DNA from: Candidatus Bathyarchaeota archaeon
Lineage (GTDB): Archaea > Thermoproteota > Bathyarchaeia > RBG-16-48-13 > JAGTRE01
Assembly (NCBI GenBank): GCA_018396415.1
Contig: JAGTRE010000005.1
Span: forward strand, 1,994 to 35,377
Direction: 5' to 3'
DNA length: 33,384 nt
Position 1 is the stretch's first letter; the number at the start of each line of letters is the position of its first letter. Of this stretch, positions 3,023 through 24,391 are shown piece after piece. Position numbers and translations under genes: made by a program. Below the pieces are notes generated by a model. The model made no database searches, had not been told where the DNA came from, and saw only the letters and a list, made by a program, of their open reading frames with translations.

Positions 3023-3126
3023 TGGTGCGGGGGGTGGGACTTGAACCCACGAAGGCCTTCGCCACAGCGGCCTCAGCGTTAGGCCCTTAAAGGTCTGCCC
3101 CTTAGACCTAGCTTGGGTACCCCCGC
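3023..3126 (-). tRNA. tRNA-Leu(GAG) with a 16-nt intron at 29/30
   Basis: The 5' end is at 3126, the discriminator A at 3026 and an encoded CCA at 3025-3023. Acceptor GCGGGGG pairs with CCCCCGC and the T arm is GTGGG-TTCAAGT-CCCAC. The anticodon stem is only complete if 3079-3094 is removed: CAG joins CG to give CAGCG, which pairs with CGCTG around the loop CTGAGGC (anticodon GAG). The variable arm TGGCGAAGGCCTTC (14 nt) is the usual class II form and the spliced length is 85 nt. The junction fits a bulge-helix-bulge, with bulges AG^A and AA^C and a GGGC/GCCT central helix. Reading the unspliced sequence as a UAA-anticodon tRNA fails because no 3' stem partner exists. Confidence 0.88.
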
Positions 3127-5143: not shown

Positions 5144-5153
5144 AAAACGATAG

Positions 5154-5258
5154 CGGGCCCGGCGGGATTCGAACCCGCGATCTCCGGCTGTCCTCTCGTC
5201 TTAGAGGGCTTACGCGCCATTTTAGGCTCGACGCCTTGTCCAGCTAGGCCACGGGCCC
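5154..5258 (-). tRNA. tRNA-Arg(TCT) with two introns and C33
   Basis: The 5' end is at 5258. Acceptor GGGCCCG pairs with CGGGCCC, the discriminator is G at 5154, and no CCA is encoded. The D arm is closed by GCC/GGC and the T arm is GCGGG-TTCGAAT-CCCGC. Intron 1 (5210-5228, 19 nt, position 29/30) interrupts the anticodon stem: TCG joins GC to pair with GCCGG. Its bulges are CG^A and AA^G, with an internal GCC/GGC hairpin. Intron 2 (5190-5201, 12 nt, position 37/38) has GAGG pairing with loop bases CCTC, and bulges TA^A and AC^A. The mature loop is CCTCTAA, anticodon TCT, with C instead of U at position 33. Spliced length is 74 nt. Confidence 0.82.
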
Positions 5259-23548: not shown

Positions 23549-23656
23549 TGGTGCTTACGGGGATCCGCCTGCTAGGCGAGTCCTGGCCGCCGGGATTTGA
23601 ACCCGGGTTAGGAGCGTGGCGGGCTCCCGTCTTAGACCAAGCTTGACCACGGCCGC
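23549..23656 (-). tRNA. tRNA-Gly(GCC) with a 30-nt intron in the 3' acceptor strand
   Basis: The 5' end is at 23656. Acceptor GCGGCCG finds only five partners (CGGCC) next to the T arm, followed by non-pairing bases. Thirty bases further on comes GCACCA, which supplies the missing C71-equivalent pairs, A73 and CCA. Removing 23555-23584 (position 70/71) restores CGGCCGC-A-CCA. The intron has bulges CC^A and AA^G, a GCGG/CCGT central helix, a GGA/TCC outer helix and a CGCC/GGCG hairpin. The anticodon stem is GGAGC/GCTCC around CCGCCAC, giving anticodon GCC and C33. The D arm is closed by GTC/GAC and the T arm is CCGGG-TTCAAAT-CCCGG. Spliced length is 75 nt. Confidence 0.85.
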
Positions 23657-23727: not shown

Positions 23728-23917
23728 TGGTGCCGCGGGCCGGATTTTCACCAAGGTCGGCTTCCCTTCTACCTTGGTCTTGAACCGGCGACAACCCGGT
23801 CTTCAGCTTCGCCCACGAAGGAATTTCTCTTCATGTCGGGCGCTCTCCCACGCTGAGCTACCGTTCCGCACATCACTCCCATGAAGGAGTGACGCTCGGC
23901 GGGTCGATTTCCGCGGC
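23728..23917 (-). tRNA. tRNA-Phe(GAA) with three introns
   Basis: The 5' end is at 23917, the discriminator A at 23731 and CCA at 23730-23728. Intron 1 (23861-23910, 50 nt) follows GCCGCGG and precedes TAGCTC; because CGG is repeated at both ends its site could be anywhere from 4/5 to 7/8. It has a perfect TCACTCC/GGAGTGA hairpin. Intron 2 (23808-23836, 29 nt, at 30/31) has bulges CG^A and AA^G, a CGCC/GGCG helix and a seven-pair hairpin. Its removal gives CCCGG/CCGGG around CTGAAGA. Intron 3 (23747-23780, 34 nt, uncertain by one base) lies in the T loop and has an ACCAAGGT/ACCTTGGT stem. The spliced tRNA is 74 nt with acceptor GCCGCGG/CCGCGGC. Confidence 0.85.
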
Positions 23918-24032
23918 GCATGACAGTTGATGCTTTATTAATTCTTTAAGTTTTTCTCCTAATTGTTGTAGTATGTGTTTTTGAATTGATTATTGAAAGT
24001 CTTAGCGTTTCGCTAAAAATAAGATTGTATGA

Positions 24033-24142
24033 TGGGCCGGGAGGGACTTGAACCCTCGACCCTGCGGGTTCGCTGGCTTTCCGCGCGTCAGGCGGATTTT
24101 AGGCCATTCAAAGGAGTCCTAACCATGCTAGACTACCGGCCC
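24033..24142 (-). tRNA. tRNA-Val(GAC) with two non-canonical introns
   Basis: The 5' end is at 24142. Acceptor GGGCCGG pairs with CCGGCCC, the discriminator is A at 24033, and no CCA is encoded. The anticodon stem TCCGC/GCGGA surrounds CTGACGC, anticodon GAC. Intron 1 (24098-24115, 18 nt) lies at 25/26, with bulges AC^T and AA^A and a TAGG/CCTA helix. Intron 2 (24062-24078, 17 nt) lies at 44/45, with bulges AA^A and AG^G and a GCGG/CCGC helix, leaving the variable loop AGGTC. The T arm is GAGGG-TTCAAGT-CCCTC. Spliced length is 75 nt. Confidence 0.88.
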
Positions 24143-24288: not shown

Positions 24289-24391
24289 TGGTGGACCGGG
24301 CGGGATTCGAACCCGCGGCTTGCGGCTTGACTAACTTATCAAGTCTCCGCGATGCCAACGCGGCGCTCATACCAAGCTGAGCTACCGGCCC
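24289..24391 (-). tRNA. tRNA-Ala(GGC) with a 25-nt intron at 45/46
   Basis: The 5' end is at 24391, the discriminator A at 24292 and CCA at 24291-24289. Acceptor GGGCCGG pairs with CCGGTCC, including the G3-U70 wobble that defines tRNA-Ala. The anticodon stem CCGCG/CGCGG encloses TTGGCAT, anticodon GGC. The intron at 24320-24344 interrupts the variable loop; its removal gives AGGCC, the usual archaeal Ala sequence. Bulges are AG^A and AA^G around a perfect GCGG/CCGC helix, and the intron forms a CTTGA/TCAAG hairpin. Spliced length is 75 nt. Confidence 0.92.

Follow-up and report, generated by a model that had tools for sequence, protein, structure and literature searches.

Archaeal tRNA genes with more than one intron are known from the Thermoproteales, the tRNA-Glu and tRNA-Pro genes of Pyrobaculum having three introns (PMC4390854, PMC4033280, PMC8450103), and three per tRNA gene is the maximum given in reviews (PMC8450103, PMC4033280). 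In the Asgard Atabeyarchaeia and Freyarchaeia, introns are present in 92-95% of tRNA genes, more than half with several, often at non-canonical positions (PMC11291895). Introns in the acceptor stem of archaeal tRNAs have also been mentioned (PMC12397907), and in the split tRNAs of Nanoarchaeum and Caldivirga, as in the gene described here, leader or trailer RNA helps to form the bulge-helix-bulge (BHB) motif (PMC4090602, PMC3218864).

The present gene, for tRNA-Phe(GAA), lies in a 33,384-nt stretch (the window) of the genome of a Candidatus Bathyarchaeota archaeon. It is like the genes of the Thermoproteales in having several BHB introns, at canonical and non-canonical sites, in a genome with a two-subunit splicing endonuclease. 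It differs in belonging to the class Bathyarchaeia, in which up to four introns were found (in tRNA-Ser(GCU) of the same genome and tRNA-Phe of a relative, G002), and in having a copy of the 5' acceptor strand in its leader, an element not mentioned for the Thermoproteales in the accessible parts of those papers. The intron-rich Asgard tRNAs are from a different phylum, and no leader element is mentioned in the accessible text (PMC11291895); four-intron genes may occur there too. Unlike the split tRNAs, the present gene is transcribed as a single RNA with its parts in normal order, and its leader copy has the 3' acceptor strand as pairing partner instead of a second transcript. Like the acceptor-stem introns already mentioned (PMC12397907), its first intron is inside the stem; here the site is specified as 4/5, with leader bases in the BHB and a leader copy. 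No description of leader-acceptor pairing or of four-intron tRNA genes was found in the open literature. Archaeal tRNAs with several introns are a known kind; as far as that literature shows, the four-intron genes and the association of a leader copy with 5'-proximal introns are new.

The tRNA-Phe gene and its introns

The genome (G000) is a draft of 1.39 Mb in 30 contigs and 96% complete. A search with its FttA protein gave 70% identity to the FttA of Candidatus Hecatella orcuttiae, and Bathyarchaeia accounted for nearly all of the named matches. BHB motifs were sought by a strict rule (4-bp central helix, 3-nt bulges, cut past the second bulge base, A as the last base of the intron) over 1,367,376 of the 1,385,562 bases, taken in stretches. 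This blind scan gave 19,866 candidates, 79 with a score of at least 29 and five with a score of at least 38. Three of these 79, scoring 38, 30 and 29, lie in register within the tRNA-Phe gene, which argues that the introns are more than chance. Blind excision of the candidates followed by ARAGORN gave a single tRNA-Phe(GAA) in the genome, on the minus strand at 23728-23900 with the CCA encoded in the gene, whereas both ARAGORN and the Rfam tRNA model missed it in the raw, unspliced sequence. Folding of the 190-nt precursor gave a z of -5.9.

All three introns have, by sequence, the two 3-nt bulges and 4-bp helix of the archaeal motif, and excising them yields a regular tRNA, GCCGCGGTAGCTCAGCGTGGGAGAGCGCCCGGCTGAAGACCGGGTTGTCGCCGGTTCAAGTCCGGCCCGCGGCACCA, of 77 nt and with the right anticodon (ARAGORN tRNA-Phe(gaa), score 125.5). 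An earlier note on this DNA had proposed a tRNA-Phe(GAA) with introns in the acceptor, anticodon and T arms and with perfect acceptor, anticodon and T stems after their removal; locus, strand and isotype agree with the present results, and the stems are indeed perfect in the spliced sequence. The amount removed is 96 nt (33 + 29 + 34) rather than the 113 proposed, since the first intron is 33 nt long and not 50. The exons are contiguous, in order and on one strand, which sets the gene apart from split or permuted genes. Feature coordinates are collected in Table 1.

Table 1. Features of the tRNA-Phe gene and other interrupted tRNA genes. Positions are those of the window unless a contig of the genome (G000) is given. 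A slash within a bulge marks the cut.
Feature	Position	Strand	Remarks
Exon 1, GCCG, tRNA nt 1-4	23897..23900	-	BHB rule, comparison with G002 and G233
Intron 1, 33 nt, at 4/5	23864..23896	-	BHB score 38, among the best 5 of the genome
Exon 2, CGG and D arm up to nt 30	23837..23863	-	
Intron 2, 29 nt, at 30/31	23808..23836	-	central helix CGCC/GGCG, bulges CG/A, AA/G
Exon 3, anticodon loop (GAA), variable region, T stem 5' strand, T loop to nt 59	23779..23807	-	
Intron 3, 34 nt, T loop 59/60	23745..23778	-	central helix TTCA/TGAA, bulges AG/A, AA/T
Exon 4, T stem 3' strand, acceptor 3' strand, discriminator A, encoded CCA	23728..23744	-	
Leader 7-mer GCCGCGG, exact copy of acceptor 5' strand, complements 3' acceptor strand	23911..23917	-	
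Candidate TATA element CTTAAA	23945..23950	-	consensus match only
tRNA-Gly(GCC), 30-nt intron in 3' acceptor strand, 70/71 (23555-23584)	23549-23656	-	strict BHB GCGG/CCGT
tRNA-Val(GAC), two introns: 18 nt after nt 28, one in variable region	24031-24142	-	
tRNA-Ala(GGC), 25-nt variable-region intron (about 24320-24345)	24289-24391	-	
tRNA-Leu(GAG), 16-nt intron after nt 32	3023-3126	-	
tRNA-Thr(CGT), 14-nt intron in anticodon loop	3547-3638	-	
tRNA-Arg(TCT), two introns	5151-5258	-	
tRNA-Ser(GCU), four introns (31, 18, 15, 15 nt): two in D loop, 30/31, 37/38	G000:C4:88564-88733	-	
tRNA-Trp(CCA), three introns (37, 70, 30 nt)	G000:C4:109425-109638	-	
tRNA-Pro(GGG), 34-nt intron near 3' acceptor strand end	G000:C3:115921-116033	-	very strong BHB (score 36)

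A pseudogene or the remnant of a split gene, with a working tRNA-Phe elsewhere, is hardly credible. The draft state of the genome leaves some room for it, but the stems are perfect, the BHBs good and the exons ordered on a single strand. A normal tRNA-Phe elsewhere, which the earlier note had named as the finding that would tell against it, was looked for across the genome with the BHB scan and ARAGORN and with a 73-nt spliced query; none was found in this 96%-complete assembly. The same query found uninterrupted orthologues 99% identical in one relative (G026) and 97% in another (G027). A 'tRNA-Phe' reported by ARAGORN at C2:142159-142306 is a tRNA-His(GUG) with introns.

The second intron is exactly where it had been proposed, with a perfect BHB. 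The third, proposed for the T arm, is there too and can now be placed: the cut past the second bulge nucleotide gives 59/60 and a mature T loop of TTCAAGT, while a cut one base upstream would yield TTCAAAT. Its central helix is thermodynamically weak in folding (probability 0.04). The 30/31 position is shared with seven relatives, four of which (G016, G035, G043, G050) have this intron alone and three of which (G004, G006, G028) have three introns, in the D loop, at 30/31 and in the T loop. T-loop introns of like arrangement occur in the latter three and in G002. The tRNA-Phe of another relative (G056) has an intron at 37/38, and in many (e.g. G008, G011, G014, G015, G026) the gene is uninterrupted. 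The gene of G002 (L092 307-468) has four introns, at 4/5 (25 nt), in the D loop (17), at 37/38 (14) and at 59/60 (29), and is perfect after their removal (ARAGORN 124.0). These varied sets imply repeated gain and loss of tRNA-Phe introns.

The first intron and the mature 5' end

By the strict rule, the first intron is placed as GCCG/AGCGTCACTCCTTCATGGGAGTGATGTGCGGAA/CGGTAGC. Its BHB has the central helix CCGC/GCGG, bulges CG/A and AA/C and a 10-bp intron helix, and the central helix includes leader nucleotides -2 and -1. This placement puts the mature 5' end at 23900, 17 nt downstream of the start of the leader 7-mer at 23917. The earlier note was right to put this intron in the 5' acceptor strand; the 50-nt length and the site after nt 7 do not stand, and the GCCGCGG it had taken for exon 1 is the leader copy. 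The 3' border, CGGAACGGTAGCTCAG, occurs in only three of 257 genomes of the class. A relative of the same order (G002) and one from another family of the class (G233) have an intron at 4/5 with the same central helix and with bulges CGA or CGT, and AAC. Placing the intron between GCCG and CGG gives perfect pairing in all three genomes.

The reading with the mature 5' end at 23917 and a 50-nt intron after nt 7 (GCCGCGG/.../TAGC) leads to the same mature sequence, because CGG is repeated and the 5' sequence GCCGCGGUAGC is therefore identical under either placement. It would also put the candidate CTTAAA element 33 nt upstream of the gene, a spacing common among tRNA genes here, rather than 50 nt upstream as for 23900. 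The borders of the 50-nt intron, however, do not form a BHB with 3-nt bulges, and the counterparts of the 7-mer in the two relatives have drifted in ways that would mispair if they were mature ends: GCCGCGA in G233 would give an A.C mismatch at 7:66, and GCTGCGG in G002 a U.G at 3:70. An extra acceptor copy outside the gene is, moreover, also found in Gln and Gly genes. We consider this reading very unlikely, and take 23900 as the mature end. As the BHB of the first intron uses leader nucleotides -2 and -1, its removal must precede trimming of the leader by RNase P; from this anatomy, the intron is likely to be spliced before RNase P acts.

Occurrence of the leader copy

Among the 29 tRNA genes of the genome with a defined start, the leader 7-mer pairs 7/7 with the gene's own 3' acceptor strand in exactly four, those for Phe, Gln(UUG), Gln(CUG) and Gly(CCC), and these same four are the only ones with an intron at or before about nt 10. 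The chance of such a split is 1 in 23,751. When leaders were swapped among the genes, a 7-nt match occurred in 2 of 870 pairs, consistent with the relatedness of the two Gln genes. No mirror copy was found in the trailers of the two genes of this genome with introns in the 3' acceptor strand, Gly-GCC and Pro-GGG.

The pattern AGCCCGG-N0..16-AGCCCGGTNG occurs at 28 sites in 22 of the 257 class genomes, compared with 3 for reversed-pattern controls. Fifteen of the 16 loci read were tRNA-Gln, every one with an intron directly after nt 10, and the other was coding sequence. The reverse search gave 31 intron-bearing Gln sites in 22 genomes. All 30 loci read of tRNA-Gln with the intron after nt 10 carry, in the leader, 6 or more consecutive nt of the acceptor strand. 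Uninterrupted tRNA-Gln was found in 169 genomes, and the 30 loci compared had no full copy and one run of at least 6 nt (30/30 vs 1/30, Fisher 5e-16, without correction for shared ancestry, which the Fisher and Wilcoxon tests both ignore). Two families (f18, f20) have both kinds of Gln gene. Ten of the 30 Gln leader copies are not 7/7; all ten begin with G, which still pairs with U72. The upstream copy was rejected as the true 5' end of Gln, as it has no BHB and the G1 copies would presumably change the A1-U72 pair.

In tRNA-Gly, an intron after nt 10 occurs in five genomes (G025, G238, G240, G042, G034). The leaders GCGGCCG, GCGGCTG and GCGGTTG show C-to-U changes alone, with pairing kept via G.U; the search pattern had Y at two positions, which limited the matches there to C or T. 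The five remaining matches to the Gly pattern are not tRNA genes; the loci dropped because they matched the patterns without being tRNA genes are L236, L325 and L331-L335. Outside the class but within the phylum, ten Gln loci (L316-L324, L326; families f32, f41 and f58) have the intron after nt 10 and the leader copy, one (L319) with T at the first position of the copy.

In many families, the leader copy goes with introns that engage the acceptor strand, at 4/5 in Phe and after nt 10 in Gln and Gly, and in every case it can pair with the 3' acceptor strand over at least 6 of 7 nt. A leader 7-mer pairing with the gene's own 3' strand was found only with such 5'-proximal introns. That the element occurs is well supported, and its function is put forward below as a hypothesis.

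Proposed role of the leader copy

In Gln, the central helix CGGT/GCCG is formed with acceptor nucleotides 5-8, and the splice motif can therefore not coexist with the real acceptor stem. In 30 Gln precursors, the median predicted probability of the central helix was 0.77 with the copy, 0.00 when it was replaced by A7 and 0.06 when it was shuffled. The predicted BHB probability was higher with the copy than without in all 30, and the copy itself was paired with the 3' strand at a median of 0.98. These medians led to the idea of a placeholder and suggest that, in Gln, the copy holds the 3' strand so that the BHB can form. The Phe genes are mixed. In G002, the central helix is at 0.90 with the copy and 0.04 without, as the placeholder idea predicts, while in G233 it is at 0.01 with and 0.21 without, against the prediction. 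For the gene in the window, the central helix of the first intron is at 0.05 with the copy and 0.73 with A7 in its place, and after splicing the copy is predicted to outcompete the true acceptor strand (-48.9 vs -37.0 kcal/mol), so that folding does not support a placeholder role in this gene. In the Phe genes of all three genomes, the copy is predicted to pair with the 3' strand at about 1.0, in G233 over 6 of 7 nt. As evidence, folding of a protein-free RNA of 190 nt at 37°C carries little weight.

In the mechanism we propose, the copy would act as a placeholder, occupying the 3' acceptor strand for as long as the true 5' strand is engaged in the BHB. A splicing endonuclease of the (alpha-beta)2 type would cut out the three introns, and RtcB would join the exons to give the 77-nt tRNA with its CCA; the true 5' strand would then displace the copy, after which RNase P would take off the leader. 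For the whole explanation, a functional tRNA-Phe gene with three BHB introns and a leader copy with this putative role, we estimate a probability of about 0.85. The more general proposal is that archaea of this phylum use a wobble-tolerant leader copy as a temporary partner of the 3' strand, so that the BHB of a 5' intron forms, the strands exchange and RNase P acts; we regard it as an even bet.

There are two other accounts of the copy. It may be a relic that no longer has a role, left by a duplication of the acceptor strand when the 5'-proximal intron was gained. An exact copy beside the gene does resemble a duplication, and the Phe fold does not require it, but a relic should decay, whereas nearly all the changes observed preserve pairing with the 3' strand, and the copy persists across many families and in no fewer than three isotypes, at spacings of 2-20 nt, in leaders that otherwise drift. 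This origin seems to us possible though rather unlikely. We give no more and no less credence to a copy that is functional in some other way, such as delaying RNase P or guarding the 3' end. The near-complete predicted pairing with the 3' strand, in Phe of three genomes and in most Gln genes, and the mixed effect on the Phe BHB would fit such a function; the increase in predicted BHB probability in every one of the Gln precursors speaks for the placeholder instead.

Splicing machinery and other interrupted tRNA genes

The genome encodes two splicing endonuclease paralogues. One, of 193 aa (L105), has retained two residues of the catalytic triad, His and Lys, and matches the crenarchaeal alpha subunits 2cv8 and 3p1z; the other, of 178 aa (L106), has Ala in place of the His. 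Judged by sequence, the pair fits the (alpha-beta)2 type and would assemble as a heterotetramer. Endonucleases of this type have been linked to a broad substrate range (PMC6379350; PMC12397907). The ligase RtcB is present alongside the pair, in a frame of 1032 aa (G000:C2:90883-93678, minus strand) with about 1.45 kb between model positions 56 and 49; this in-frame insert is probably an intein in the tRNA ligase.

Most tRNA genes of this genome have introns (Table 1). The Gly, Phe, Val and Ala genes form a cluster of four in which every gene is interrupted. In tRNA-Gly(GCC), ARAGORN and Rfam put the gene end wrongly at 23582, the CCA being encoded past the intron. tRNA-Lys(UUU) has three introns (20, 16 and 29 nt). 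The spliced 87-mer of tRNA-Ser(GCU) is up to 89% identical to full-length uninterrupted orthologues, and 100% over nt 1-43 in one genome (G031). The 70-nt anticodon-loop intron of tRNA-Trp has C-box (TGATGA) and D-box (CTGA) motifs, as does the known guide-RNA intron of archaeal tRNA-Trp.

Implications

With these genes, the Bathyarchaeia join the intron-rich archaea, and the number of introns per tRNA gene is raised to four. Their structure explains why such genes are missed or given wrong ends by ARAGORN and the Rfam tRNA model. The tRNA-Phe gene shows how a tRNA can survive an intron in the acceptor strand, at a site that breaks the stem needed by RNase P and the synthetase. The leader copy offers a sequence-level and easily tested answer, common to several isotypes across the phylum. 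If its proposed role is true, it would be a previously undescribed step of tRNA maturation, permitting introns at sites where splicing would otherwise be blocked.
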